NCBI RefSeq assembly: GCF_000381265.1
Contig: NZ_KB906278.1
Span: 1 to 64,000, forward strand
DNA length: 64,000 nt
From: Curvibacter lanceolatus ATCC 14669
GTDB taxonomy: Bacteria; Pseudomonadota; Gammaproteobacteria; Burkholderiales; Burkholderiaceae_C
Direction of reading: 5' to 3'
Shown here piece after piece: positions 39,413 through 54,034 of this stretch (its first letter is position 1; each line of letters begins with the position of its first letter). Under the pieces are notes generated by a model. It saw nothing but the letters and a program-made list of their open reading frames with translations, was not told the DNA's origin and did not search any database. The translations under genes and the position numbers were made by a program.

Positions 39413-39471
39413 TGCACAAAAGCAGTGCAGCGCCCCCGCCCCAAGGCCTGCCCTGCGCACCAAGCCCGAAC
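39413..39471 (+). promoter_or_regulatory. Two candidate NtrC sites upstream of the nrtA promoter
   Basis: TGCAC-N7-GTGCA at 39413-39429 matches the NtrC consensus spacing (TGCACC-N5-GGTGCA). A weaker site GCAC-N7-GAAC lies at 39457-39471. Their centres are about 43 bp apart, close to four helix turns, and about 150 and 105 bp upstream of the predicted start, a normal enhancer position for sigma-54 promoters. Confidence 0.6.
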
Positions 39472-39543: not shown

Positions 39544-39559
39544 TGGCACGCCCTTTGCT
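39544..39559 (+). promoter_or_regulatory. Sigma-54 promoter of nrtA
   Basis: TGGCAC (39544-39549), five bases, TTGCT (39555-39559): an exact match to the -24/-12 consensus TGGCAC-N5-TTGCW. Predicted start near 39570, giving a leader of about 165 nt that holds two hexaloop hairpins and a terminator. Confidence 0.88.
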
Positions 39560-39594
39560 TAACTGGTGCATGACCCCAACGGGTCAAACAACAT

Positions 39595-39692
39595 GTCAGA
39601 CCCAAAGGCGGGCCTGGCGCGTTGCCAGGACAAAGGCGTCCCCACCACGGCAGGCCCATCGGGCTCAGTCGTTGCGTGAGGACGCCTTTTTT
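39595..39692 (+). promoter_or_regulatory. ANTAR (NasT-type) antitermination leader of nrtA
   Basis: Hairpin P1 at 39597-39616: CCC/GGG around loop AAAGGC, an A-C mismatch, then CAG/CTG. Hairpin P2 at 39628-39641: GGAC/GTCC around loop AAAGGC. Both loops have six bases with A at position 1 and G at position 4, the known ANTAR-target rule. The loop and 3' arm of P2 are also the 5' arm of the terminator: AAAGGCGTCC (39632-39641) pairs with GGACGCCTTT (39680-39689), then a T-run to 39692. P2 and the terminator cannot form together, so binding of an ANTAR protein would allow read-through. Confidence 0.82.
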
Positions 39693-39734
39693 GCTTTGTA
39701 CGTTCCGAATGACTTCAGCTTCAAGGAGTAGCCC

Positions 39735-40979
39735 ATGACCGACCTGTTGAACACCCGCCTGAGCCGGCGCACCGTGCTGCAAACCGCTGCCGTGGCTGCG
39801 ACGGGCCTGTCCCCGGCCCTGCGCTCGGTCGTCTATGCGGGCGGCTCCGACAAGCCCGAGAAGGAAGAGGTGAAGATCGGCTTCATCCCCCTCACCGACT
39901 GCGCCAGCGTGGTCATGGCCTCGGTGCTGGGCTTCGACAAGAAGTACGGGGTGAAGATCATCCCCAGCAAGGAAGCCAGCTGGGCCGGCGTGCGCGACAA
40001 GCTGGTCAACGGCGAACTGGACTTTGCCCACGTGCTCTACGGCCTGGTCTACGGCGTGCACCTGGGCCTGGGCGGCCCCAAGAAGGACATGGCCGTGCTG
40101 ATGACCCTGAACAACAACGGCCAGGCGATCACGCTGTCCAAGAAGCTGGCCGACAAGGGCGCCGTCGACGCGGCCAGCCTGGCCAAGCTGATGGCCAGCG
40201 ACAAGCGCGAATACACCTTTGCCCAGACCTTCCCCACCGGCACCCATGCGATGTGGCTGTACTACTGGCTGGCCTCGGCCGGCATCAACCCGCTGCAGGA
40301 CGCCAAGGTCATCACCGTGCCGCCGCCCCAGATGGTGGCCAACATGCGCGTGGGCAACATGGACGGCTTCTGCGTGGGTGAGCCCTGGGGCCACCGCGCC
40401 ATCATGGACGGCATCGGCATCACCGGCGTCACCACCCAGGACATCTGGAAAGACCACCCCGAGAAGGTGCTGGGCACCACCGCCGAATTCACCAAGAAGT
40501 ACCCCAACACCTCGCGCGCCGTGATGATGGCCATCCTCGAGGCCAGCCAGTGGATCGATGCCAGCCTGCAGAACAAGCTGAAGATGGCCGAGACCATCGC
40601 CGACAAGTCTTACGTCAACACCGGTGTGGACGCCATCAACCAGCGCATCCTGGGCCGCTACCAGAACGGCCTGGGCAAGACCTGGGACGACCCCAACCAC
40701 ATGAAGTTCTTCAACGACGGCGCCGTCAACTTCCCCTACCTGTCCGACGGCATGTGGTTCCTGACCCAGCACAAGCGCTGGGGCCTGCTCAAGGAGCACC
40801 CCGATTACCTGGCCGTGGCCAAGCAGATCAACCAGATCGACCTCTACAAGCAGGCCGCCGGGGCCCTGAAGATCAACGTGCCCAAAGACCCCATGCGCAC
40901 CAGCAAGCTGATCGATGGCGTGGTCTGGGATGGCAAGGACCCCAAGAAATACGCCGAATCCTTCAAGGTTCACGCCTGA
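39735..40979 (+). CDS. nrtA: Nitrate/nitrite ABC transporter substrate-binding protein (NrtA type)
   Basis: 414 aa. Tat signal: TRLSRRTVLQTAAVAATG (about residues 7-24), as expected for NrtA/CmpA proteins. Mature part opens KIGFIPLTDCASVVMASVLGFDKKYG, the phrase of the NMT1/NrtA family, with FAHVLYGLVYGVHLGLGG and GFCVGEPWGHRA. Binds nitrate in the periplasm for the NrtBD importer. AAGGAG six bases before ATG. First gene of nrtA-nrtB-nrtD, behind a sigma-54 promoter and an ANTAR-type leader. Confidence 0.93.
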   Translation: MTDLLNTRLSRRTVLQTAAVAATGLSPALRSVVYAGGSDKPEKEEVKIGFIPLTDCASVVMASVLGFDKKYGVKIIPSKEASWAGVRDKLVNGELDFAHVLYGLVYGVHLGLGGPKKDMAVLMTLNNNGQAITLSKKLADKGAVDAASLAKLMASDKREYTFAQTFPTGTHAMWLYYWLASAGINPLQDAKVITVPPPQMVANMRVGNMDGFCVGEPWGHRAIMDGIGITGVTTQDIWKDHPEKVLGTTAEFTKKYPNTSRAVMMAILEASQWIDASLQNKLKMAETIADKSYVNTGVDAINQRILGRYQNGLGKTWDDPNHMKFFNDGAVNFPYLSDGMWFLTQHKRWGLLKEHPDYLAVAKQINQIDLYKQAAGALKINVPKDPMRTSKLIDGVVWDGKDPKKYAESFKVHA

Positions 40980-41017
40980 TCCGCCACTGAGCCCCACCCC
41001 CCCATCAGGAGCCCGCC

Positions 41018-41941
41018 ATGGTCAGTGCCGTCTTTCACAACCCCGTCGAACTACCCGCCACCCCCCAGGTGCCCGCGCCCAAGCCTGCTGCCTCGATCGC
41101 CCCAGCCCCCATGACAAAAGCCGCCCCCGCCGCCCCGCGCCCTGCCCGCCTGCCGTTTGACTGGCGCGCCTTCTGGCTGCGCGTGCTGCCCCCGGTTTTC
41201 GGGCTGGGCCTGATGCTGGGCCTGTGGGCCATCGTGTCGATCACCACCGCCAGCGCCATCCCGTCGCCGGCCGATACCTTCAAGCAGGCCCTGGAGGTGT
41301 TCAGCGACCCCTTCTACAGCAAGGGCCCCAACGACCAGGGCGTGGGCTGGAACGTGCTGTTCTCGCTCAAGCGCGTGGCCATGGGCTTCGGCCTGGCCGC
41401 CCTGGTGGGCATCCCGGCCGGCTTTCTGATCGGGCGCTTTGAATTCCTCTCGCGCATGTTCAACCCCTTGATCAGCCTGCTGCGCCCGGTGTCGCCACTG
41501 GCCTGGCTGCCCATCGGCCTGCTGGTCTTCAAGGGCGCCAACCCGGCCGCCATCTGGACCATCTTCATCTGCTCGATCTGGCCCATGATCATCAACACCG
41601 CCGTGGGCGTGCAGCGCGTGCCCCAGGACTACATGAACGTGGCCCGCGTGCTCAAGCTGTCCGAGTGGAAGATCTTCACCAAGATCCTTTTTCCCTCGGT
41701 GCTGCCCTACATGCTCACCGGCGTGCGCCTGGCCGTGGGCACCGCCTGGCTGGTGATCGTGGCGGCCGAGATGCTGACCGGCGGCGTGGGCATCGGCTTC
41801 TGGGTCTGGGACGAGTGGAACAACCTCAACGTCAAGAACATCATCATCGCCATCTTCGTGATCGGCGGCGTGGGCCTGCTGCTGGAGTACGCCCTGATCC
41901 GCATCGCCACGGCCTTCACCTTCGAAGAAGTCAAGAGCTGA
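41018..41941 (+). CDS. nrtB: Nitrate ABC transporter permease
   Basis: 307 aa. An Ala/Pro-rich cytoplasmic N-terminal tail of about 45 residues precedes the membrane part; then about six transmembrane segments with the BPD_transp_1 loop EWKIFTKILFPSVLPYMLTGVRLAVGTAW. Forms the channel for NrtA-delivered nitrate. AGGAG before the ATG; 38 bp after nrtA. Confidence 0.93.
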   Translation: MVSAVFHNPVELPATPQVPAPKPAASIAPAPMTKAAPAAPRPARLPFDWRAFWLRVLPPVFGLGLMLGLWAIVSITTASAIPSPADTFKQALEVFSDPFYSKGPNDQGVGWNVLFSLKRVAMGFGLAALVGIPAGFLIGRFEFLSRMFNPLISLLRPVSPLAWLPIGLLVFKGANPAAIWTIFICSIWPMIINTAVGVQRVPQDYMNVARVLKLSEWKIFTKILFPSVLPYMLTGVRLAVGTAWLVIVAAEMLTGGVGIGFWVWDEWNNLNVKNIIIAIFVIGGVGLLLEYALIRIATAFTFEEVKS

Positions 41942-41972
41942 ACCACCCCACCCCCTCATCAAGGACCACGCC

Positions 41973-42779
41973 ATGAACAGCGCCAAGTACATCGAGATCC
42001 AGGGTGTCGAACAGACCTTCCGCACCGCCAAGGGGGCCTTCCCCGCCCTGCGGGACATCCACCTCACCATCGCCAAGGGCGAGTTCGTGGCCCTCATCGG
42101 CCACAGCGGCTGCGGCAAGTCGACCCTGCTGAACCTGATCGCCGGGCTGACCTCGCCCACCCAGGGCGCCATGCTGTGCGCCAACCGCGAGATCAAGGGC
42201 CCAGGCCCCGAGCGGGCGGTGGTGTTCCAGAACCACTCCCTGCTGCCCTGGCTCACCTGCCACGAGAACATCCACCTGGCGGTGGAGCGCGTCTTCGGCC
42301 AGCGCGAAAGCAAGGCCCAACTCAAGGCCCGCACCGAGGCGGCCCTGGCCCTGGTCGGGCTGACCGCCGCCGCACAAAAGCGCCCAGGCGAAATCTCGGG
42401 CGGCATGAAGCAGCGCGTGGGCATTGCCCGGGCCCTGTCGATGGAGCCCCAGGTGCTGCTGATGGACGAACCCTTTGGCGCGCTCGACGCCCTCACCCGC
42501 GCCAAGCTGCAGGATGAGTTGCTGGAGATCGTGGCCCAGACCCAGGCCACGGTGGTCATGGTGACCCACGATGTGGACGAGGCCGTGCTGCTGTCCGACA
42601 AGATCGTGATGATGACCAACGGCCCGGCCGCCACCATCGGCGAGGTGCTGAGCGTCGACCTGCCCCGCCCCCGCTCGCGCGTCGCCCTGGCCGAAAGCAC
42701 CCAGTACCTGGGCTACCGCAAGGCCGTGATCGACTTCCTGTACACCCGCCAGGCCCACGTCGAAAAGACCGCCGCCTGA
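41973..42779 (+). CDS. nrtD: Nitrate ABC transporter ATP-binding protein
   Basis: 268 aa. Walker A GHSGCGKST, Q-loop VVFQNHSLLPWLT (typical of the nitrate/taurine group), signature EISGGMKQRVGIA, Walker B VLLMDEPFGALD, H-loop VTHDVDEAV. A single ATPase, i.e. like NrtD/NasD rather than the two-component NrtC/NrtD with a regulatory NrtA-like domain; so no C-terminal nitrate sensor here. AAGGA before ATG. Confidence 0.92.
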   Translation: MNSAKYIEIQGVEQTFRTAKGAFPALRDIHLTIAKGEFVALIGHSGCGKSTLLNLIAGLTSPTQGAMLCANREIKGPGPERAVVFQNHSLLPWLTCHENIHLAVERVFGQRESKAQLKARTEAALALVGLTAAAQKRPGEISGGMKQRVGIARALSMEPQVLLMDEPFGALDALTRAKLQDELLEIVAQTQATVVMVTHDVDEAVLLSDKIVMMTNGPAATIGEVLSVDLPRPRSRVALAESTQYLGYRKAVIDFLYTRQAHVEKTAA

Positions 42780-42780
42780 G

Positions 42781-42806
42781 CCCCCCCCCCCCCCCCCCCC
42801 CCCCCC
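42781..42806. repeat. 26-base poly-C tract just after nrtD
   Basis: An unbroken run of 26 C starts directly after the nrtD stop codon and ends five bases before the nrtD terminator stem. It is in no gene. Such a run is expected to vary in length by slipped-strand replication, and it is also a place where sequencing or assembly can fail. Confidence 0.9.
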
Positions 42807-42810
42807 AACC

Positions 42811-42846
42811 GCCCCTCCCGGCCCTGCGCCGTCGAGGGGCGTTTTT
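42811..42846 (+). terminator. Terminator of the nrtABD operon
   Basis: GCCCCTC (42811-42817) pairs with GAGGGGC (42834-42840), then GTTTTTCTT. It follows the poly-C tract. Confidence 0.82.
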
Positions 42847-42865
42847 CTTCGTCCGGGCCGCCCGC

Positions 42866-42880
42866 GCACCAAACCCGTGC
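42866..42880 (+). promoter_or_regulatory. Candidate NtrC site upstream of the narK promoter
   Basis: GCAC-N7-GTGC, the consensus arrangement, with CAAACCC between. It centres about 50 bp upstream of the predicted start, closer than usual. The left half (GCACCAA then CCCG) also occurs in the second nrtA site. Confidence 0.5.
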
Positions 42881-42898
42881 CAGAACCCCTTGTTTTGG

Positions 42899-42914
42899 CG
42901 GCATGGAGTTTGCT
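42899..42914 (+). promoter_or_regulatory. Sigma-54 promoter of the narK-like gene
   Basis: CGGCAT (42899-42904), five bases, TTGCT (42910-42914). The invariant GG and GC are correctly spaced; two departures from TGGCAC. Predicted start near 42925. Confidence 0.68.
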
Positions 42915-42950
42915 TGCCCTGGGTATCGGCCCTCAGGGGCCGTTGGGGCC

Positions 42951-43045
42951 CCAGGTGTGACGATGCACCCGGCCCCTCAGGACACAGGCGTCTCCACAGC
43001 GGGCTTCTCACCAGAAGCAGGCTGGTGCGGACGCCTTTTTTGTTT
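42951..43045 (+). promoter_or_regulatory. ANTAR (NasT-type) antitermination leader of the narK-like gene
   Basis: P1 at 42951-42972: GGTGT/GCACC around loop GACGAT, an A-C mismatch, then CC/GG. P2 at 42980-42993: GGAC/GTCT around loop ACAGGC. G is at loop position 4 in both; position 1 is A in P2 and G in P1. The terminator uses the P2 loop and 3' arm: AGGCGTC (42986-42992) pairs with GACGCCT (43030-43036), then TTTTTTGTTTT. The sequence after the terminator stem (TTTTTTGTTTTCCGGA) is nearly the same as in the nasC leader. Confidence 0.78.
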
Positions 43046-43077
43046 TCCGGAACGCCTGCGGGCCCGCAAAGACACCC

Positions 43078-44289
43078 ATGTTCAACTTCCGAGACTTCCA
43101 CCGCTCAGGTCACAGCCCCACGCTCTGGTCCGCCTTTTTGTACTTCGGCTTCTCGTTTGCCATCTGGTCCATCAACGGCGCCATGGCCCCCTTCATCACC
43201 GAGGCGCTGCAGCTCAGCCCCACCCAAAAGGGGCTGATGCTGTCCATCCCGATCTTTGCCGGGGCCTTCATGCGCTTTCCGCTGGGCCTGATGGCGCAGT
43301 ACATCGGGCGCAAGAACGCCACCCTGGTCGAGATGGGCGGCATCAGCCTCAGCATGGCCTATGGCTACTTCTTTGTGCAGACCTTCAATGACCTGCTGGC
43401 CATGGGCGTGCTGCTGGGGGTGGCCGGTGCCAGCTTCGGCGTGGCCATGTCGCTGGGCTCGGGCTCGTTCCCGCCCCGCTACAAGGGCCTGGCCATGGGC
43501 ATCGTGGGCGCCGGCAATGTGGGCACGGCCTTCGCGGCCTTGCTGGCCCCGGTGCTGGCCCAGAACTTCGGCTGGCAGACGGTGTATGGCATCGCGGCCC
43601 TCAGCGTGGCCATCCCGGCCGCCGTGATGGTGGTCTTTGCCAAAGAGCCGGCCGACCTGTCGCCCCACACCACGCTGCGCGAGCACCTGTCGTGCCTGTA
43701 CGAGAAAGACGGCTGGGCCTTCAGCCTGATCTATGCCGTCACCTTCGGCGGCTTCGTGGGCCTGTCGGCCTTTCTGCCCAGCTATTTCTACGAACAATTC
43801 GGGGTCAGCAAGGTTCAGGCTGGCCAGCTCACCATGCTCGCTGCCTTCCTGAGCGCAGCACTGCGGGTCATGGGGGGCTGGCTGTCTGATCTCTGGGGGG
43901 GCGTGAACACGCTCACCGGCGTGCTGGTCGTCACCGCCGCCTGCCTGCTGCTGTGCGGCTTCGCGCAAGGCTCGCTACCGGTCACGGTGCTGCTGTTTCT
44001 GGTCTGCTTCTCGGCCCTGGGCGCGGGCAATGGCGCACTGTTCCAGCTGGTGCCCCTGCGCTGGCCGCTGACCACCGCCGTGGCGGGCTCGATGATCGGT
44101 GAACTCGGTGCGCTGGGGGGTGGCCTGGTGCCCAACCTGATGGGCATCTCCAAGCAATACACCGGCTCCTACCTGCTGGGCTTTGCCTGCTTTGCGGCCT
44201 GCGCCGTGGGGGTGCTGCTGCTGTTGCGTGTGATGCAGATCCGCTGGACCCGCACCTGGGCTGAAAAAGGCGGGCGCGCCCGCCACTGA
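43078..44289 (+). CDS. narK: MFS nitrate/nitrite transporter, NarK/NasA type
   Basis: 403 aa, about 12 transmembrane segments. The two arginines that bind nitrate in the NNP family are visible in the TM2 block AFMRFPLGLMAQYIG and in the TM8 block AALRVMGGWLSDLWGG. Glycine-rich signatures GAGNVGTAFAALLAP and LGAGNGALFQLVP match NarK. Probably a nitrate importer or nitrate/nitrite antiporter for assimilation. It has its own sigma-54 promoter and ANTAR-type leader, so it is a separate unit from nrtABD. No strong Shine-Dalgarno. Confidence 0.92.
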   Translation: MFNFRDFHRSGHSPTLWSAFLYFGFSFAIWSINGAMAPFITEALQLSPTQKGLMLSIPIFAGAFMRFPLGLMAQYIGRKNATLVEMGGISLSMAYGYFFVQTFNDLLAMGVLLGVAGASFGVAMSLGSGSFPPRYKGLAMGIVGAGNVGTAFAALLAPVLAQNFGWQTVYGIAALSVAIPAAVMVVFAKEPADLSPHTTLREHLSCLYEKDGWAFSLIYAVTFGGFVGLSAFLPSYFYEQFGVSKVQAGQLTMLAAFLSAALRVMGGWLSDLWGGVNTLTGVLVVTAACLLLCGFAQGSLPVTVLLFLVCFSALGAGNGALFQLVPLRWPLTTAVAGSMIGELGALGGGLVPNLMGISKQYTGSYLLGFACFAACAVGVLLLLRVMQIRWTRTWAEKGGRARH

Positions 44290-44312
44290 AATCGGTCCCT
44301 GCGGCGCCCCGA

Positions 44313-44338
44313 CTGACTGGCTTGTGCAGCCCAGTCAG
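44313..44338. terminator. Convergent hairpin between narK and the kinase gene
   Basis: CTGACTGG (44313-44320) pairs with CCAGTCAG (44331-44338). No T-tract on either strand, so at most a weak bidirectional terminator. It overlaps the kinase stop codon. Confidence 0.35.
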
Positions 44339-46080
44339 CGCGGCAGGTACAGCAGGCAGTAGACCAGCGCCGCGTTGAACAACGCACTCACCACCAGGGC
44401 GATCTTCCAGACCGCCGCCGGGTCGCGCTGGATCAAGGGCGTGGCCACCGGCGCGCTCAAGGGGCGCGAGGCGCCGCGCTCCAGCGCCAGCAGCATTTCC
44501 TCGGCGGTCTCGAAGCGCTGGGCACGCTGCCGCGCCACCGCCTTCAGGGCCACGTGGTCCAGCCAGATGGGCACCTGCGGGTTGTGCCGACTCGGCGGCT
44601 GCGGGTCGCGGTGGTAGCGACCGCTCTGGTAAGGCAACACCTCGCCATAAGGCAAGCGACCCAGGCTGAGCAACTGGTACAGCGTCACGCCCAGGGCATA
44701 CAGGTCGCTGCCGGCATCAGGCAACTGAGCCTTGTGGCCCGCCTGGCCATGCCCATCCCATTGCTCGGGGTTCATGTAGGTGGGCGTGCCGGCATGCAGT
44801 TCGCGCGTGGCGGCTGGCTCACGCCCGCTCAGGGCCACGCCCAGGTCCAGCAGGCGCAGCACGCCGTCTTCACCCAGGTGCAGGTTGTCGGGCTTCACAT
44901 CGCGGTGCACCACCCCTTGCCGGTGCAACACGGCCAGCGTGCGCAAGGCCTGGGTGACCAGGTTCAGCACCTGGGGCAGCGGCAGCGCCGGCTGACGCTG
45001 CAGCAAGGCCCCCAGGGTCTCACCGTCGTACCAGTCGTACAGCAGGTAGAAGCCGCTGGCCGTGCCAGCCGCCTGCGGCGGCCAGTCATTGAGCCGGGCC
45101 AGATGCCCCGCCGCGCTGCCGCCCTGCATGCGGCGCGCCACCCAGGCCTCGTGGGCCAGGGTCTGGCGCTCCTCGGGGTCGTGCGCGCGCTGGGGGTGCA
45201 GCGACTTCAGGGCGTAGCGCCGCTGCGTCAGCGGATCACGCACCTGGTAGAGGCGGTGGATGCCGCTGTCGGCCACCAGCGCCAGCACTTCCAAGCCATC
45301 CACCGTGTCGCCCACCTTCAGCAAGGGCAGCACGGGCTGCTGCAGGGCGTGGCGGGCCTCGTCCTGCAGCGTGCCTTCAAGCGCTCCCTGCACCCGCACC
45401 ACGGCGGCCGTCAGGTTGTCGCCACTGCCGCTGCGCAGGGCCGCCTTGACCAGGGCTTCGCTCAGGGCCTGGGGCGCCAGCCCCTGCGCCAGCAGGCCCA
45501 GGATGTCGCGCCCTGGCAGGCTGCCATGCACCCCGTCGGACAGCAGCACAAAGGTGTCGCCACTTTGCAGATCGCCCTGGCTGTAGTCGACCAGCAAGCG
45601 CTCATCCAGCCCCACGGCCCGGGTCAGCTGGTGGGCCAAGTCGGTGTGCGGCATCACATGGTCGACCGTCAGTTGCTGCATCTCGCCGTCGCGCACCAGG
45701 TAGGCCCGGGTGTCCCCCACATGGGCCACCGTGTAGGTCTGCCCGCGCAGCACCAGGGCGGTGAGCGTGGTCAGCCCCAACGCCGGCTGCCGTCGCCGGT
45801 TGATGCCTGCCAGCCAGGCGTTCTGGGCGCTGATGACGCGGTCCAGGGCCACCGTGGTGTCCCAGGTCTCGGGGGTGCCGAAGTAGTCGCGCACCAGCGT
45901 CGTCACCGTGGTCTGGGCCGCCTCACGGCCAAAGCCCCCGGTGCTCACCCCATCGGCGATCGCGGCAATCGCACCACGGCCACGCTCGTGGCCCTGGCCG
46001 ACGGCCAGGGCGGCGAAATCCTCGTTCTCGGACTTGCGCCCAGGCAGCGAGACAAAACCAAATTCGAGATCAAAGCTCAT
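44335..46080 (-). CDS. Fused PP2C-type phosphatase and Ser/Thr protein kinase
   Basis: 581 aa. Residues about 1-235 are a PP2C phosphatase: ENEDFAAL, AIADGVSTGGFG, TVAHVGDTRAYLV, LSDGVHGSLP and SGSGDNLTAAVV hold the metal-binding aspartates. Residues about 275-545 are a Hanks-type kinase: ATP lysine in YALKSLHPQ, catalytic loop VVHRDVKPDNLHL, DLG in place of DFG, and GTPTYMNPEQW. The C-terminus ends in one transmembrane helix, so it is an inner-membrane-anchored cytoplasmic enzyme. Located between the nitrate transporter and the nitrate reductase genes on the opposite strand; I infer it acts on this pathway, target unknown. Confidence 0.9.
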   Translation of the reverse strand: MSFDLEFGFVSLPGRKSENEDFAALAVGQGHERGRGAIAAIADGVSTGGFGREAAQTTVTTLVRDYFGTPETWDTTVALDRVISAQNAWLAGINRRRQPALGLTTLTALVLRGQTYTVAHVGDTRAYLVRDGEMQQLTVDHVMPHTDLAHQLTRAVGLDERLLVDYSQGDLQSGDTFVLLSDGVHGSLPGRDILGLLAQGLAPQALSEALVKAALRSGSGDNLTAAVVRVQGALEGTLQDEARHALQQPVLPLLKVGDTVDGLEVLALVADSGIHRLYQVRDPLTQRRYALKSLHPQRAHDPEERQTLAHEAWVARRMQGGSAAGHLARLNDWPPQAAGTASGFYLLYDWYDGETLGALLQRQPALPLPQVLNLVTQALRTLAVLHRQGVVHRDVKPDNLHLGEDGVLRLLDLGVALSGREPAATRELHAGTPTYMNPEQWDGHGQAGHKAQLPDAGSDLYALGVTLYQLLSLGRLPYGEVLPYQSGRYHRDPQPPSRHNPQVPIWLDHVALKAVARQRAQRFETAEEMLLALERGASRPLSAPVATPLIQRDPAAVWKIALVVSALFNAALVYCLLYLPR

Positions 46081-46115
46081 GCATCAGCCAAAGCAGATTC
46101 CATGCCCGAAGCTGG

Positions 46116-46171
46116 TGCACCCGCGCGACACACCTTGTCCGCAGGCGTGACGCACCGCACCAATTTCGGGC
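46116..46171 (+). promoter_or_regulatory. Degenerate NtrC-like sites upstream of the nasC-like gene
   Basis: TGCAC-N7-ACACA at 46116-46132 and GCAC-N7-GGGC at 46157-46171. Each keeps one good half-site. Their centres are about 40 bp apart and about 113 and 73 bp upstream of the predicted start, mirroring the nrtA layout. Confidence 0.35.
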
Positions 46172-46210
46172 GCCGCCAGAAACTTCAGCGCCAGCGCGGC
46201 CCCCACAGGC

Positions 46211-46226
46211 TGGCACAGCCATTGCT
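46211..46226 (+). promoter_or_regulatory. Sigma-54 promoter of the nasC-like/nasA operon
   Basis: TGGCAC (46211-46216), five bases, TTGCT (46222-46226): exact -24/-12 match. Predicted start near 46237, leader of about 170 nt. Confidence 0.88.
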
Positions 46227-46258
46227 TGAAACCCTCAACGGCCCCCGGGCCGCCGGAA

Positions 46259-46356
46259 GGATCCCGTGCAATGGCGCACCGGATCCCTCCGGGACGAAGG
46301 CGTCCCCACATGCTGAATCGAGTCATCGAGCCAGCATCGTGTGGACGCCTTTTTTG
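46259..46356 (+). promoter_or_regulatory. ANTAR (NasT-type) antitermination leader of the nasC-like/nasA operon
   Basis: P1 at 46259-46286 is the best of the six hairpins: GTGC/GCAC around loop AATGGC (A1, G4), a C-C mismatch, then GGATCC/GGATCC. P2 at 46291-46306: GGGAC/GTCCC around loop GAAGGC. The terminator starts in the P2 loop (46297, AAGGCGTCC) and pairs with GGACGCCT (46343-46350), with further pairing CCACA/TGTGG and TGCTG/CAGCA as an alternative register, then TTTTTTG. Confidence 0.85.
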
Positions 46357-46408
46357 TTTTCCGGACCGACTGGCACGCCAGAGCGGCCCCAAGCGACGGA
46401 GCATGACG

Positions 46409-47644
46409 ATGAAAAAACTCAAGCTGGTGATGGTCGGCAATGGCATGGCCGGGGTGCGCACCATCGAAGAACTGCTGAAGGTCGATCCCTCGCTGTACGA
46501 GATCACCATCTTCGGCGCCGAGCCGCACCCCAACTACAACCGCATCATGCTGTCGCCCGTGCTGGCCGGCGAGCAGACGCTGGAGGACATCGTCCTCAAC
46601 CCCTACGACTGGTACCACGACCACGGCATCACCCTGCACAGCGGCAAGACAGTGGTGCAGATCGACCGCACCCGCCGCGTGGTGCGGGCCGAAGACGGCA
46701 CCGAGGCGGCCTACGACCGGCTGCTGCTGTGCACGGGCTCCACCCCCTTCATGCTGCCGGTTCCGGGCAAGGACCTCCAGGGGGTGATTGCCTACCGCGA
46801 CATCCACGACACCAACACCATGATCGAAACCGCCGCCAAACACCGCCATGCCGTGGTCATCGGCGGCGGCCTGCTGGGGCTGGAGGCCGCCAACGGCCTG
46901 ATGCTGCGCGGCATGAGCGTGACAGTGGTGCACGTGAACGCCTGGCTGATGGAACGCCAGCTCGACGATGTGGCAGCCCGGCTGCTGCAGCACTCGCTGG
47001 AAGAGCGCGGCCTGCAGTTCCGCCTGGGGGCGCAGACCCAGGCGCTGGTGGGTGGCGAAGACGGACGTGTCAAGGCCGTGCGCTTCAAGGACGGCACCGA
47101 GGTGCCTGCCGACCTGGTGGTGATGGCCGTGGGTGTGCGCCCCAACACCGAGCTGGCCGAGCAGGCCGGCCTGCTGGTGAACCGGGGCATCGTGGTCAAC
47201 GACACCTTGCAGACCGTGACCGACCCGCGCATCTGGTCGGTGGGCGAGTGCGCCACCCACCGCGGCACCGCCTACGGCCTGGTGGCCCCGCTGTTCGAGC
47301 AGGCCCAGGTGGCCGCCAACCACCTGGCCGAGTTCGGCATCGCGCGCTACCTGGGCTCGCACACGTCGACCAAGCTCAAGGTCACCGGCATCGACCTGTT
47401 CTCAGCCGGCAACTTCATGGGCGGCGAAGGCACCGAGGAGATCGTGCTGAGCGACCCCCGTGCCGGGGTCTACAAGAAGCTGGTCATCCAGGACGACAAG
47501 CTGATCGGGGCCTGCCTGTACGGCGACACGGTGGACGGCAGCTGGTACTTCAAGCTGCTGCGCGAGCGCTGCAGCGTGGCCGACTTCCGCGACCAGCTGA
47601 TGTTCGGCGAATCCAGTCGCCAGTCCAGCGCGCTCAAGGCCTGA
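46409..47644 (+). CDS. FAD/NADH oxidoreductase, NasC-like (N-terminal half of NirB)
   Basis: 411 aa from ATG at 46409, which is eight bases after GGAG; ATG at 46403 is too close to it. FAD-binding VMVGNGMAGVRTIEELL, NAD-binding VVIGGGLLGLEAANGL, FAD motif VWSVGECATHRG-type (IWSVGECATHRG). It matches the first half of NADH nitrite reductase NirB and stops after VADFRDQLMFGE. The [2Fe-2S] and siroheme domains of NirB are absent. This is the layout of NasC of Klebsiella, which feeds NADH electrons to nitrate reductase. First gene of an operon with a PilJ-domain protein and nasA. Confidence 0.82.
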   Translation: MKKLKLVMVGNGMAGVRTIEELLKVDPSLYEITIFGAEPHPNYNRIMLSPVLAGEQTLEDIVLNPYDWYHDHGITLHSGKTVVQIDRTRRVVRAEDGTEAAYDRLLLCTGSTPFMLPVPGKDLQGVIAYRDIHDTNTMIETAAKHRHAVVIGGGLLGLEAANGLMLRGMSVTVVHVNAWLMERQLDDVAARLLQHSLEERGLQFRLGAQTQALVGGEDGRVKAVRFKDGTEVPADLVVMAVGVRPNTELAEQAGLLVNRGIVVNDTLQTVTDPRIWSVGECATHRGTAYGLVAPLFEQAQVAANHLAEFGIARYLGSHTSTKLKVTGIDLFSAGNFMGGEGTEEIVLSDPRAGVYKKLVIQDDKLIGACLYGDTVDGSWYFKLLRERCSVADFRDQLMFGESSRQSSALKA

Positions 47645-47664
47645 GGCACGATCGGAGAAGCACC

Positions 47665-48444
47665 ATGGGTCTGAAACGCCGACACTTTCTGGGGCTGGCG
47701 ACCTGCTGGGCCGCCTCGGCCTGGGCCCAGGTCGACCTGGCCGACGCCATCAACATGGCCGGACGCCAGCGCATGCTCTCGCAGCGCATGGTCAAGGCCT
47801 GGCTGGCCTTGGCGGCCCAGGCCCCCACGCCTGCCGCACAGCAGGTGCTGGGCCAGTCGATGGCGCTGTTCGAGCGCCAGCAGGAACAACTCAAGACCTA
47901 CGCGCCCAGCCTGGCGATCCGCGGCACCTATGCCGCACTGGACACCGCCTGGCAGGCGCTGCGCGAAGGACTGAACGCCCCACCCGCCGCCGCACGGGCA
48001 CCCGCCCTGCTGCAGGCCGATGCCCAGGTCCTGGCCTTGGCCCAGCAAGGCACGACCCAGCTGGAAGCCACCTCCACCCGGCCCGCAGGCCCCCTGGTCA
48101 ACCTCGCTGGACGGCAGCGCATGCTGTCGCAACGCCTGGCCAAGTTCTACCTGGCCGGCGTGCTGCAGGTCGATCCAGGCCTGGTGGGCGCCGAAATGTC
48201 CCGGGCACGCAACGACTTTCTGCAGGCCCAGGACACGCTGCGCAAGGCCCCGGAGACCCACCCCCGCATCACGGAGGAACTGACCTTGGCCGACGGCCAA
48301 TGGGTGTTCTTCGATGCCGCACTGAAAAGAATGGTCTCGGCCACCCCCGGCAGCAAACCCCTGTCGGAGGTGTTCGTGACCAGCGAAAACCTGCTCTCGG
48401 TGATGGATCGCGTCACCGGGATGTATGCGGCCCTCAAGGCCTGA
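47665..48444 (+). CDS. Exported protein with two PilJ-type (P-box-like) motifs
   Basis: 259 aa, GGAG before ATG. Signal peptide residues 1-21 (cleavage near AWAQ). Two repeats of the PilJ N-terminal domain: DAINMAGRQRMLSQRM (about 27-42) and LVNLAGRQRMLSQRL (about 144-158), each followed by a helical stretch. The motif resembles the nitrate-binding P-box of the sensors NarX/NarQ (pattern IN-x-AG-xx-RM-x-S-x-R). No membrane or signalling domain follows, so it would be a soluble periplasmic protein. Placed between the NADH reductase and nitrate reductase genes; I infer a nitrate or nitrite binding role. Confidence 0.8.
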   Translation: MGLKRRHFLGLATCWAASAWAQVDLADAINMAGRQRMLSQRMVKAWLALAAQAPTPAAQQVLGQSMALFERQQEQLKTYAPSLAIRGTYAALDTAWQALREGLNAPPAAARAPALLQADAQVLALAQQGTTQLEATSTRPAGPLVNLAGRQRMLSQRLAKFYLAGVLQVDPGLVGAEMSRARNDFLQAQDTLRKAPETHPRITEELTLADGQWVFFDAALKRMVSATPGSKPLSEVFVTSENLLSVMDRVTGMYAALKA

Positions 48445-48456
48445 ACGGAGAACCCC

Positions 48457-48519
48457 ATGACCCTCTGGAAACCTGTCCGCCCCCAGGCGATGACTGCCGC
48501 AGGAGCCCCATGCCGATGA
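48457..48519 (+). CDS. Candidate 20-codon leader ORF coupled to nasA
   Basis: ATG at 48457 preceded by CGGAGAA. Frame of 20 codons (MTLWKPVRPQAMTAAGAPCR) ending TGA at 48517-48519, which overlaps the nasA ATG at 48516 as ATGA. No homolog recognised. It may help start translation of nasA, or it may be chance. Confidence 0.3.
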   Translation: MTLWKPVRPQAMTAAGAPCR

Positions 48520-51350
48520 GCGCCATCCCCCAGGAAACCCGTTCCACCTGCCCCTATTGCGGCGTGGGCTGCGGCGTGATCATCGAAACCCGCGCCCACG
48601 CCATCACCGGCGTGCGCGGCGACCCGGAACACCCGGCCAACTTCGGGCGGCTGTGCACTAAGGGCTCCACCCTGCACCTCACCGCCAGCGCCGCGGTCAC
48701 CCGCCAGACCCGGCTGCTGCAGCCGCTGCAACGCCTGCAAAGGCGTGGCCCGCCCCAGCCCCTGGCCTGGAACGCTGCCCTGGACCTGGCCGCTGACCAG
48801 CTGGGCCGCATCGTGCATGAGCATGGGCCCGATGCCCTGGGCTTCTACCTGTCGGGCCAGTTGCTGACCGAGGACTACTACGTCTTCAACAAGCTGGCCA
48901 AAGGCCTGCTGGGCACCAACAACCTCGACACCAACTCGCGCCTGTGCATGAGCAGCGCCGTGGCCGGCTACAAGGCCACCCTGGGGGCCGACGCCCCACC
49001 GGCCAGCTATGCCGATTTCGACCATGCCGACTGCCTGTTCATCGCCGGCAGCAACACCGCCTGGGCCCACCCGATCGCGTTTCGCCGCATCGAAGACGCC
49101 AAGCGCGCCCGCCCCGGCCTGAAGATCGTGGTGGTCGACCCGCGCCGCACCGACACGGTCGAGCTGGCAGACCTGCACCTGGCCATCCAGCCCGGCACCG
49201 ATGTGATGCTGTTCCACGGCATGCTGCACATCATGCTGTGGGAGGGCTGGACGAATCCGGCCTACATCGCGGCCCACACCAGCGGCTTCGACGCGCTGCA
49301 GGCCGTGGTGCGCGATTGCACGCCCACCCGCGTAGCCGAGGTCTGCGGCATCACCGCGCAGGACCTGCGCGAGGCCGCACGCCTGTTTGCCACCTCGCCC
49401 GCCACGCTGAGCCTGTACTGCCAGGGCCTGAACCAGTCCAGCAGCGGCACGGCCAAGAACGCCGCACTGATCAACCTGCACCTGGCCACCGGCCAGATCG
49501 GCCGCCCAGGGGCCGCCCCGTTCTCGCTGACGGGCCAGCCCAATGCCATGGGCGGGCGCGAGGTGGGCGGGCTGGCCAACCTGCTGAGCGCCCACCGCGA
49601 CATGGCCAACCCGCAGCACCGCGCCGAAGTGGCCGCCCACTGGGGGTTGGACCAGGTGCCCGGCACCCCGGGCAAGAGCGCAGTCGAGATGTTCGAGGCC
49701 GCGGCCGATGGCCAGATCAAGGCCTTGTGGATTGCCTGCACCAACCCCGCCCAATCGATGCCGGACCAGGCCACCGTGCGCCGTGCCCTGCAGCGCGCCG
49801 AGTTCGTGGTGCTGCAGGAGGCCTTTGCCAGCACCGCCACCGCCGAATTCGCCGACCTGCTGCTGCCCGCCACCACCTGGGGCGAGAAGCTGGGCACCGT
49901 GACCAACAGCGAACGGCGCATCAGCCGCGTGCGCGCCGCCCTGCCCCCGGCCGGTGAGGCGCGTCACGACTGGGCCATCGGCGTGCAACTGGCCCATCGT
50001 CTGGAGGCCCGGCTGCGCCCCGGCCAGGCCACGCTGTTCCCCTACCCCACCGAAGCCCCCGAGGCCGGAGTGGAAGCCATCTGGTGCGAGCACCGCGAAT
50101 CCACCCGTGGCCGCGACCTGGACATCACCGGCCTGAGCTACGCCCTGCTAGACCGCCAGGGCCCACAGCAATGGCCTCTGCCCGCCGGCGCGCAGACGGG
50201 CAAGGCGCGGCTGTACGAAGACGGCGTGTTCCCCACGCCCGATGGCCGCGCCCGCTTCAGCGCCACCGCCTACCAGCCGGTGGCCGAGAGCCGCGATGAG
50301 CGCTACCCCTTTTCGCTCACTACCAGCCGACTGCGGGATCAGTGGCACGGCATGAGCCGCACCGGCACGCTGGGCCGCCTGTTCGGCCATGTGCCCGAGC
50401 CCGCGGTGCAGCTCCACCCCCAGGACATGGCCCGCCACCAATGGCGAGACGGCGAGCTGGTGAGCGTGCAGTCGCGCCGCGGCGCCATCGTGCTGCCGGT
50501 GCAGGCCAGCACGGACATCGGCATCAGCCAGGCCTGCATCGCCATGCACTGGGGCTCTGAGTTTCTCAGCGGCTGCTCGGCCACCGGCGAGGCCTTGGCC
50601 GGCGTCAACACCCTGATGCCCAGCACCTTCTGCCCGGGCTCCAAGCAGCCCGAGCTCAAGCATGCCGCCGTGCGCATCAGCAAGGCCGAGCTGCCCTGGT
50701 CCCTGGTGGCCATGGCCTGGCTGCCCGCCGACCAGGCCCTCACGGTGCGCGAGCAGCTCAAGCCTCTGATGGCGGCCTTTGCCTTCAGTGCCTGCGTGCC
50801 CTTTGGGCCGTCTGGGCCGTCTGGGCCGTCAGGGCCCGCACAGGGCGAACGCACCGGCGTGCTGTTCCGCGCCGCCGCACTCGAAGCCCCCCCGCCCGAG
50901 CTGCTGGTGCAGATCGAGGCCCTGCTGGGCCTGCGCGACACCGACTCGCTGCGCTACATCGACGCGCAGCGTGGCCAGCGCCGCACCGTGCGGGTCGAGC
51001 CCCAGGGGGAGGACATCCGCGTCACCGGCCTGCTGCTGGGCGGCGACACCCGCGCCGAGGTGTGGCTCAAGACCTTGCTGCAAGAGTATCTGCCCGCCCA
51101 GGCCTACGGGCGCCTGCTGCTGTCGCCGGGCGCCGAAGCCCCGGTCGCCGTGGTGAGCCAAGGCCGAACCGTGTGCAGCTGCCTGGGTGTGACGGACCAG
51201 GCCATCGAGGCCAAGTTGGCGGTTTGCCAGGGCCCGGACGAGGATCGGCTCGGCCAGCTGCAGGGGGCGCTGAAATGTGGCACGAATTGTGGTTCATGTG
51301 TGCCGGAGCTCAAGCGCATGGTGCGGTTGATCAAGCCCGTGACCGGCTGA
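48516..51350 (+). CDS. nasA: Assimilatory nitrate reductase, molybdenum catalytic subunit
   Basis: 944 aa from ATG at 48516 (ATG at 48510 is an alternative, four bases after AGGAG). [4Fe-4S] site STCPYCGVGCGVII with later RLCTKGSTL; molybdopterin domains with LCMSSAVAGYK, TNPAQSMPD, and the C-terminal MoCo-binding region LTTSRLRDQWHGMSRTG. A collagen-like GPSGPSGPSGP linker (near residue 770) leads to a BFD-like [2Fe-2S] domain, VCSCLGVTDQAI ... CGTNCGSCVPELKRMV. Takes electrons from the NasC-like protein and reduces nitrate to nitrite in the cytoplasm. Confidence 0.95.
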   Translation: MSAIPQETRSTCPYCGVGCGVIIETRAHAITGVRGDPEHPANFGRLCTKGSTLHLTASAAVTRQTRLLQPLQRLQRRGPPQPLAWNAALDLAADQLGRIVHEHGPDALGFYLSGQLLTEDYYVFNKLAKGLLGTNNLDTNSRLCMSSAVAGYKATLGADAPPASYADFDHADCLFIAGSNTAWAHPIAFRRIEDAKRARPGLKIVVVDPRRTDTVELADLHLAIQPGTDVMLFHGMLHIMLWEGWTNPAYIAAHTSGFDALQAVVRDCTPTRVAEVCGITAQDLREAARLFATSPATLSLYCQGLNQSSSGTAKNAALINLHLATGQIGRPGAAPFSLTGQPNAMGGREVGGLANLLSAHRDMANPQHRAEVAAHWGLDQVPGTPGKSAVEMFEAAADGQIKALWIACTNPAQSMPDQATVRRALQRAEFVVLQEAFASTATAEFADLLLPATTWGEKLGTVTNSERRISRVRAALPPAGEARHDWAIGVQLAHRLEARLRPGQATLFPYPTEAPEAGVEAIWCEHRESTRGRDLDITGLSYALLDRQGPQQWPLPAGAQTGKARLYEDGVFPTPDGRARFSATAYQPVAESRDERYPFSLTTSRLRDQWHGMSRTGTLGRLFGHVPEPAVQLHPQDMARHQWRDGELVSVQSRRGAIVLPVQASTDIGISQACIAMHWGSEFLSGCSATGEALAGVNTLMPSTFCPGSKQPELKHAAVRISKAELPWSLVAMAWLPADQALTVREQLKPLMAAFAFSACVPFGPSGPSGPSGPAQGERTGVLFRAAALEAPPPELLVQIEALLGLRDTDSLRYIDAQRGQRRTVRVEPQGEDIRVTGLLLGGDTRAEVWLKTLLQEYLPAQAYGRLLLSPGAEAPVAVVSQGRTVCSCLGVTDQAIEAKLAVCQGPDEDRLGQLQGALKCGTNCGSCVPELKRMVRLIKPVTG

Positions 51351-53267: not shown

Positions 53268-53305
53268 TCGTGTCCGTTGTGTTCACCAGGGAAAGAGAAG
53301 TCCGC

Positions 53306-54034
53306 ATGACTGCATTGGCTCGACACCACTCCACGGCTCACACGGCCCCAACGGCCTATGCGCCAGCCCTGCCCACCGGCCCGGGCGCCGCAGCCAGGCC
53401 CAAGGAAGGCGACATCTCCCTGGTCAACATGGCCGCCCGCCAGCGCATGCTGTCGCAACGCATGATCCTGCAGACCGTGCTGGCCGCCCAGGGGCACGCC
53501 GGTCAGTTGGTGGCCGCACGCAAATCACTCGACCTGTTCACCAGCAGCCAGCAACACCTGCGCGAGACCGGCCGGGCCCTGCCCGCCGAGCAATCGCAGA
53601 CCATCCTGCGCGCCTATGAAGGCCCCCAAGGCGCGGGGCAGACCATCGACACCTTCATCGAACAACTGCGCTCCACCCTGGACCAGATCGAACGCCAGGA
53701 CCGGCGGGTGAATGACACCCTGGCCGCGCTGGTGGACAGCACCGATCGGGTGCTCGATGCCCTGAACCGTGCCACTACCGCCTTCGACCAGGTCACGGCC
53801 GCGCAATCGCAAGCCATGATGCGCGAGCTGACCGGCATCGTGGCCTCGATCCAGACGGTGGCCCGCGAAGCCAAGGTGGTGAGCTTCAACGCCCAGGTCA
53901 TGGCGGCCCGCGCCGGCCAGCACGGCCGCGAGTTTGCGGTGGTGGCCAACGTGCTGTCGGGCATCACGGCCGAGATTGACGGCCTGTCGCTCAAGGCGGT
54001 GTCGCTGGCCGGGCGCCAGGGCGTCAAGCACTGA
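53306..54034 (+). CDS. Cytosolic PilJ-domain protein with a degenerate chemoreceptor tip
   Basis: 242 aa from ATG at 53306, with AGAAG upstream. No signal peptide or membrane segment. One PilJ/P-box-like motif, LVNMAARQRMLSQRM (about 39-53), then helices. Residues about 180-230 resemble the signalling tip of methyl-accepting proteins: REAKVVSFNAQVMAARAGQHGREFAVVA. The tip glutamate of the usual EAARAGE is changed and the C-terminal half of the hairpin is missing, so normal CheA coupling is doubtful. I infer a soluble nitrate sensor or adaptor linked to the nas genes. Confidence 0.78.
   Translation: MTALARHHSTAHTAPTAYAPALPTGPGAAARPKEGDISLVNMAARQRMLSQRMILQTVLAAQGHAGQLVAARKSLDLFTSSQQHLRETGRALPAEQSQTILRAYEGPQGAGQTIDTFIEQLRSTLDQIERQDRRVNDTLAALVDSTDRVLDALNRATTAFDQVTAAQSQAMMRELTGIVASIQTVAREAKVVSFNAQVMAARAGQHGREFAVVANVLSGITAEIDGLSLKAVSLAGRQGVKH

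Follow-up and report, generated by a model that had tools for sequence, protein, structure and literature searches.

The 64,000-nucleotide stretch of Curvibacter lanceolatus ATCC 14669 analysed here (contig NZ_KB906278.1, positions 1 to 64,000; hereafter the window) carries three transcription units for nitrate use, each preceded by a leader built on one common plan. The leaders stand before nrtA, the first gene of a nitrate ATP-binding cassette (ABC) transporter unit, before the nitrate/nitrite transporter gene narK, and before the gene for a NirB-N-like flavin adenine dinucleotide (FAD) reductase that opens a nitrate reductase unit (Table 1). Each consists of two hairpins, P1 and P2, and an intrinsic terminator. 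The 5' arm of the terminator begins in the P2 loop, and its pairing partner is GGACGCC, ahead of a T run. In the predicted folds all three leaders contain a pair of hexaloop hairpins, each with a stem of 3 base pairs (bp) or more, and in all three P2 and the terminator are mutually exclusive. The P1 and P2 loops are AAAGGC and AAAGGC in the nrtA leader, GACGAT and ACAGGC in the narK leader, and AATGGC and GAAGGC in the FAD reductase leader. G is found at position 4 (G4) in six of six loops and A at position 1 (A1) in four, with A1 and G4 together in both loops of the nrtA leader only. An earlier note made from this DNA had described three such leaders as ANTAR-type antitermination elements; their positions, the shared hairpin and terminator plan and the loop letters were all reproduced when we checked them against the sequence.

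Three copies of the P2 motif GGACNNAGGCGTCY are present in the 64-kb window; none of 100 shuffles contains it. Whole leaders were more stable than each of 200 dinucleotide shuffles, with z values of -3.5 for nrtA, -3.9 for narK and -7.0 for the third. In one fold of the nrtA leader a competing hairpin takes the place of the lower P1 pairs; when more 5' sequence is included, P1 is predicted in full. The terminator fold is favoured over a fold with P2 enforced in each of the three leaders, indicating that P2 would need help to persist.

A pattern search recovered the leader in 54 of 299 genomes of the same family and in 30 of the 399 genomes of a sample from the order, whereas the reversed-pattern controls gave none in either search. 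All but one of the 61 family leaders precede nitrate genes (nrtA in 39 cases, FAD reductase in 16, narK in 4 and nirD-nasA in 1), and the remaining leader lies at a contig end. In a second set, 114 of 132 leaders match nitrate reference proteins; some of the 18 without a match belong to distant phyla or lie near the end of a stretch. An ANTAR gene is present in 53 of the 54 leader-bearing genomes compared with 240 of the 299 family genomes overall (Fisher p 5e-5). An AANGGC loop was found 12–70 nucleotides (nt) upstream of P2 in 52 of 61 family leaders, against 5 in a control region. With the loop picked by sequence alone, 249 of 276 cells in P1 pairs 1–6 are paired among 46 distinct stems, while partner shuffles, which ignore the relatedness of the leaders, gave a mean of 151 and a maximum of 171. 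Pairs 2–6 use five to six pair types each, the closing pair is C-G in 44 of the 46 stems, and in the loops A1 and G4 are conserved while positions 2 and 3 vary. At loop position 5 and its partner in the terminator, 57 leaders have G/C and 4 have A/T, the search pattern having let R and Y vary independently. The earlier note had named a lack of covariation in the P1 and P2 stems as evidence that would speak against it. P1 covaries strongly; in P2 the search pattern itself fixed the inner three pairs.

The same comparison bears on the single mismatch that had been thought common to the three P1 stems. The nrtA leader has it (A-C), as does the FAD reductase leader (C-C), but a 3x1 internal loop is predicted for narK. 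In relatives, pairing weakens around pairs 4–8, and a consensus fold of 30 leaders by RNAalifold shows P1, interrupted after six pairs by a 2x2 internal loop, as well as the terminator; the shared feature of P1 is thus, as far as predicted structures go, an internal loop and not one specific mismatch. Within the C. lanceolatus genome a pattern search returned three leaders. A covariance model (R1) built from leaders ranked the same three highest, and the two remaining matches with E<0.1 lie on the minus strand, across two of these leaders. R1 includes two of the window leaders, which therefore match by construction, and was used to score the best 150 of 7986 first-look candidates. Neither the pattern search nor R1 within those 150 candidates revealed a fourth leader, be it at nirB or at the other nrtA-like operons.

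Upstream of P1 we found two further shared elements that were absent from the earlier description. A strict pattern drawn from the sigma-54 promoter consensus (GG at -24 and GC at -12 with 10-nt spacing and consensus flanks) has exactly three matches on both strands of the 64 kb, one before each leader. Just after each predicted start lies a perfect hairpin of 5–6 bp closed by a tetraloop, termed P0. Comparison with the NtrC site consensus also revealed an NtrC-like site, TGCACAAAAGCAGTGCA, at 39413 and a similar one, GCACCAAACCCGTGC, at 42866. Among the family leaders, 51 of 61 have a strict sigma-54 site upstream, as opposed to none of 61 control stretches. The distance from the -12 GC to the P1 loop, counted in the 43 leaders that have both a strict site and an AANGGC loop, is mostly 22–29 or 45–47 nt, with one leader at 35 and three at 50–53; in the window, the leaders of nrtA and of the FAD reductase gene belong to the long group (45–47 nt). 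Hairpins at the P0 position are moderately enriched, occurring in 43 of 47 long-class leaders against a shuffle mean of 28.6 and a maximum of 38. The idea that every P0 is an ANTAR hexaloop was abandoned, because loops such as AGCGAT and AACGAT can close an A-U pair and become tetraloops; judged by the longest stem, 12 of 43 P0 hairpins have a hexaloop, 7 of these with A1 and G4. Two small genomes of the same genus (G007 and G006) have a short leader (L006, L007) with the P1 loop AACGAA near the promoter, at about the position of P0 in the window.

The genome of C. lanceolatus (99.3% complete, 72 contigs) holds a single ANTAR match, so the outcome of no ANTAR-domain gene at all, which would have spoken against the leaders' proposed role, did not occur. 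This match lies in an open reading frame that also contains a NIT domain (NIT 166 bits, ANTAR 72 bits; PF08376, PF03861). The best solved relative of the protein is PDB entry 4akk, "nitrate regulatory protein" (E 1.3e-41), which we take to be NasR of Klebsiella oxytoca. The regulator is probably NasR-like rather than NasT-like, and one NIT-ANTAR protein would serve all three leaders.

From the promoter matches, the hairpins, the covariation of P1, the overlap of P2 with the terminator and the sole ANTAR match we infer a common course of events. Each unit would start at its sigma-54 promoter, presumably activated by NtrC under nitrogen shortage, and RNA polymerase would make P0 and P1 first and P2 afterwards. 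Without nitrate, P2 would refold into the intrinsic terminator, leaving only a short RNA with a predicted length of about 120 nt. With nitrate, the NIT domain of the single NasR-like protein would release the ANTAR domains, which would engage the P1 hexaloop first and afterwards keep P2 folded as a hexaloop hairpin; the terminator would be blocked, and read-through would allow transcription of nrtABC, narK and the nitrate reductase unit. We consider it highly probable that a sigma-54-started antitermination switch of the NasR type acts on all three units. ANTAR-type antitermination, as the earlier note proposed, is well supported by the architecture, the P1 covariation, the nitrate targets and the ANTAR genes of leader-bearing relatives. 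It named nitrate as the signal but missed the sigma-54 promoters. Because such a promoter precedes each leader, the control logic is likely to be nitrogen limitation AND nitrate instead of nitrate by itself. C. lanceolatus would then offer a genome in which one NIT-ANTAR protein runs a three-unit nitrate regulon through near-identical leaders.

None of the window leaders matches an Rfam family at its gathering score. Two of them score 23.4 and 20.2 bits with P11 (RF00625, gathering score 70) and two score 23.5 and 22.1 bits with narK RNA (RF03032, gathering score 43.2), the third leader being unmatched in each case. Of 20 loci tested from relatives 7 matched, all below gathering, with best scores of 37.4 bits for narK RNA and 36.8 bits for P11. 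In a subset of 18 loci, drawn for the most part from Pseudomonas and other gamma- and betaproteobacteria, 11 exceed the gathering score of P11 and 5 that of narK RNA. Two P11 members that we inspected have the loops AACGTC or AACGAT, AGAGAA and AAAGGC, and four narK RNA members from Pseudomonas have AACGGC and AAAGAC or AAAGGC. A sigma-54-like element stands in front of all inspected members, and narK is the best downstream match for four of five narK RNAs, the fifth preceding a kinase/phosphatase. Since these members combine a sigma-54-like element with A1/G4 hexaloops, both families share the layout of ANTAR leaders, and two Rfam families would be tied to one mechanism. They resemble the window leaders in these two features, in their nitrate genes and in a P2 loop AAAGGC or AAAGAC, but the window leaders fall far below gathering and P11 has a third hexaloop of its own beside P2. 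P11 has been described as a small RNA of P. aeruginosa PA14 that regulates the nirB-nirD-nasC operon, and also as the signal for inherited avoidance in C. elegans (PMC12080996); that this RNA is the Rfam P11 family is suggested by its name and location. NfiR of P. stutzeri, called a P11 homologue, has an NtrC site and is reported to act on nifD mRNA (PMC6606865), and a term search of that source finds neither NasT nor antitermination. Among the open-access matches listed, no paper ties P11 or narK RNA to ANTAR proteins, Marogi 2024 and Weinberg 2017 lying outside this scope.

Several observations weigh against a NasR-type switch on all three units. The strict sigma-54 pattern was drawn up after the window sites had been seen, and a loose pattern, present in 61 of 61 family leaders, also occurs in 25 of 61 control stretches. 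An NtrC-like dyad lies near only two of the three promoters, with none before the third. P1 and P2 alone fold no better than shuffles in the nrtA (z 0.05) and narK (z -0.80) leaders and beat them only in the third (z -4.4), so the stability signal comes mainly from the terminator. The P1 loop of narK is the most deviant, lacking A1 and having a U-G closing pair, on account of which ANTAR binding there may be weak; a close relative (G002, leader L040) has the same loop. The P2 loop of the third leader carries G at position 1. Among the family leaders, 9 of 61 are without an AANGGC loop, and the outer pair of P2 is G-C in 55 and unpaired in 3, with GAC/GTC fixed by the search pattern. One leader-bearing genome in 340 contigs (G035) has a NIT gene and no ANTAR match. 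Finally, the NIT-ANTAR gene of C. lanceolatus lies downstream of nirB and a Rieske-type nirD on another contig, and no leader was found at nirB, which has a sigma-54-like site (AGGCACGGAAGCTGCTT) and an upstream region in which no hexaloop leader was seen by eye.

The earlier note had proposed that the leaders are read by a NasS-NasT pair. In several leader-bearing relatives, G085 and G042 among them, a short ANTAR frame does lie some hundreds of bases ahead of the leader, and in G003, of the same genus, the tsaD and nrtA genes are separated by one for an ANTAR protein of 208 aa. No such gene stands in the window, where tsaD and nrtA are immediate neighbours, the only ANTAR match of the genome is the fusion protein, and a check for nasS-nasT elsewhere in the genome gave no NasT match. 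NasS is not evident either, because the two further NrtA-like proteins (36% and 22% identity) both lie next to ABC permease- and ATPase-like genes. NasT/NasS was on these grounds rejected as the regulator, and we regard such a pair as very improbable here. The pattern search and the 150 candidates scored with R1 gave no leader at the two extra NrtA-like genes (G000:C13:100802-101977 and G000:C1:729460-730284), and comparison by eye showed no loop difference between NasR and NasT genomes.

Two other explanations concern the role of the leaders themselves. The terminators could be constitutive attenuators or RNA-stability elements without ANTAR control, P1 and P0 merely stabilising the transcript; the tetraloops of P0 in the window, the moderate enrichment of hairpins at its position and the ordinary stability of P1 plus P2 in two leaders are consistent with this. 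Such elements are difficult to reconcile with the conserved A1 and G4 beside variable loop positions 2 and 3, the strongly covarying P1, its nearly constant C-G closing pair and the co-occurrence with ANTAR genes, and we regard this explanation, too, as very improbable. Alternatively, terminated leaders might act mainly in trans, whether as small RNAs or by serving as a decoy for the ANTAR protein. A terminated leader would still expose P1, and P11, of the same architecture, is treated as a small RNA in Pseudomonas (PMC12080996), with the nifD effect of its reported homologue NfiR (PMC6606865) as a further parallel. Trans action in C. lanceolatus is argued by analogy, however, and the leaders lie directly upstream of their own genes with the terminator in between, which is the anatomy of a cis-acting switch. 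A mainly trans role is unlikely in our view, and cis and trans roles are compatible.

The NasR-type switch in the window has two hexaloops and a tetraloop P0 per leader, and a third hexaloop is accordingly a matter of its relatives. We counted hexaloops in 117 leaders, left from 193 distinct leaders once 30 that lack a sigma-54 anchor and 46 that are redundant had been removed; those contributed by a wider contig scan are a sample from among the matches listed. Unambiguous hexaloops upstream of P2 with stems of at least 4 bp have A1 and G4 in 125 of 149 cases. Eighteen leaders have no such A1/G4 hexaloop, 72 have one and 27 have two, while in shuffles two were found in a mean of 0.08 leaders and a maximum of 2. 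A loose count gives at least two upstream hexaloops in 47 of 117 leaders; we rely on the strict count of 27. By predicted structure, then, 27 of 117 leaders bear three hexaloops in all, compared with the dual hairpin of the published ANTAR motif (PMC3369931). Examples come from Pseudomonas fluorescens (L103), Limnohabitans (L110) and Pseudoduganella (L142). The model of Walshe et al., in which ANTAR contacts single hexaloops successively (PMC8934654), would accommodate a third loop, and the presence of such a loop in many leaders bears on the sequential loading proposed for ANTAR proteins. The distance from the P1 loop to P2 in relatives ranges from about 20 to 57 nt, and the long ones often contain an extra hairpin; leaders L009, L018 and L019 have one between P1 and P2, with the A1/G4 loops AAAGTT, AGCGTT and ACCGCT.

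We lean slightly towards a broader reading that joins these results. Proteobacterial nitrate leaders would often be sigma-54-started ANTAR switches with three hexaloops, two loading hairpins followed by the antiterminator, and Rfam P11, narK RNA and, by published homology, NfiR would be included. P11 would then be the leader RNA of a nitrate operon, ended at its terminator. In the lineage of the window the first loop would have decayed to a tetraloop, and the NIT-ANTAR protein would govern every leader, a nasT-like gene nearby having perhaps been lost. If P11 is such a terminated leader, its reported effects on nitrogen genes should track NtrC and nitrate status, as should the conditions under which it accumulates.

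The window case belongs to the known kind of NasR/nasF antitermination. In Klebsiella oxytoca, too, a NIT-ANTAR protein acts on a nitrate operon whose leader has dual A1/G4 hexaloops and a P2 overlapping an intrinsic terminator, NasR antitermination on nasF being recounted in PMC3369931, and the nasF operon is under Ntr control (PMC5424462), like the logic proposed here. Unlike Klebsiella, the window has three separate leaders instead of one operon leader, its nasR-like gene is found with nirBD elsewhere, and the narK loop deviates; P0 precedes P1 in the window, the nasF leader not being part of that comparison. NasS-NasT systems of Paracoccus, Azotobacter and Pseudomonas likewise control nitrate genes through leaders, and NasT, also an ANTAR protein, binds the nasA leader of P. 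denitrificans (PMC3795266), but the window genome has no NasT match or evident NasS. Antitermination by a dual hairpin is established for EutV of Enterococcus, where paired A1/G4 hexaloops with P2 inside the terminator are backed by in vivo and structural proof (PMC3369931, PMC8934654); the linker of eut leaders is tightly constrained, in contrast to the variable distances in the relatives examined here. Ramesh et al. 2012 predicted ANTAR leaders in Pseudomonas and Burkholderia, several units per genome, before nitrate/nitrite transporters and nitrite reductase (PMC3369931), and by term counts their main text names neither NasT nor narK. According to a sigma-54 survey of 2025, the genes for nitrate ABC transporters, NAD(P)H-nitrite reductase and ANTAR proteins are predicted to have sigma-54 promoters (PMC12316311). 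Given these two sets of predictions, the window case is expected in outline.

Table 1 Features of the three nitrate units in the window (all positions are window coordinates; hairpins and terminators are predicted)
Feature	Position	Strand	Details
Sigma-54 (-24/-12) promoter, nrtA unit	39544..39559	+	TGGCACGCCCTTTGCT
P0 hairpin, nrtA leader	39571..39586	+	6 bp, tetraloop CAAC, at predicted 5' end; fold
P1 hairpin, nrtA leader	39594..39619	+	Hexaloop AAAGGC, A-C mismatch after 3 bp; folds (partial in one); homologous P1 stems covary in relatives
P2 hairpin, nrtA leader	39628..39641	+	GGAC-AAAGGC-GTCC, overlaps terminator 5' arm; fold, motif
Intrinsic terminator, nrtA leader	39632..39692	+	Fold -61.8 kcal/mol vs -48.8 with P2 enforced
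nrtA, nitrate ABC transporter substrate-binding protein	39735..40979	+	PF13379, 341 bits
nrtB permease	41018..41941	+	TIGR01183, 253 bits, cut-off 209
nrtC/D ATPase	41973..42779	+	TIGR01184, 338 bits, cut-off 292
Sigma-54 promoter, narK unit	42899..42914	+	CGGCATGGAGTTTGCT
P0 hairpin, narK leader	42927..42942	+	6 bp, tetraloop TCAG; fold
P1 hairpin core, narK leader	42954..42969	+	Hexaloop GACGAT without A1; fold; identical loop in G002 (L040)
P2 hairpin, narK leader	42980..42993	+	GGAC-ACAGGC-GTCT; fold, motif
Intrinsic terminator, narK leader	42986..43041	+	Fold -62.5 kcal/mol vs -52.3 with P2 enforced
narK, nitrate/nitrite transporter of the major facilitator superfamily	43078..44289	+	TIGR00886, 220 bits, under cut-off 311.7; PF07690
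Sigma-54 promoter, FAD reductase/nitrate reductase unit	46211..46226	+	TGGCACAGCCATTGCT
P0 hairpin, FAD reductase leader	46239..46252	+	5 bp, tetraloop CCCG; fold
P1 hairpin, FAD reductase leader	46259..46286	+	Hexaloop AATGGC, C-C mismatch after 4 bp; folds
P2 hairpin, FAD reductase leader	46291..46306	+	GGGAC-GAAGGC-GTCCC; fold, motif; GAAGGC loop in 9/61 family leaders
Intrinsic terminator, FAD reductase leader	46296..46355	+	Fold -72.0 kcal/mol vs -56.3 with P2 enforced
NirB-N-like FAD/NADH reductase ("nasC-like" in the earlier note), first gene of unit	46406..47644	+	TIGR02374, 474 bits over profile 1-399 of 794, under cut-off 578; Pyr_redox_2
Assimilatory nitrate reductase catalytic subunit (probable), BFD-like C-terminus	48510..51350	+	Fdh-alpha 500 bits, NasC/NasA 455 bits, all under cut-offs; PF00384, PF04324

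Between nrtC/D and the narK promoter lies a run of 26 C (42781-42806) that may be either a slippage tract or an artefact of assembly; behind it comes a hairpin resembling a terminator, with a T run. Two PilJ-domain proteins with the motif RQRMLSQRM, which resembles the P-box of the nitrate sensors NarX and NarQ, are encoded at 47644-48444, inside the nitrate reductase unit, and at 53270-54034, further down; the latter has a partial methyl-accepting chemotaxis protein signalling domain below cut-off. On the minus strand between narK and the reductase unit, at 44335-46080, is a gene for a PP2C phosphatase/Ser-Thr kinase fusion, and a protein similar to it is found downstream of the narK RNA in locus L145.

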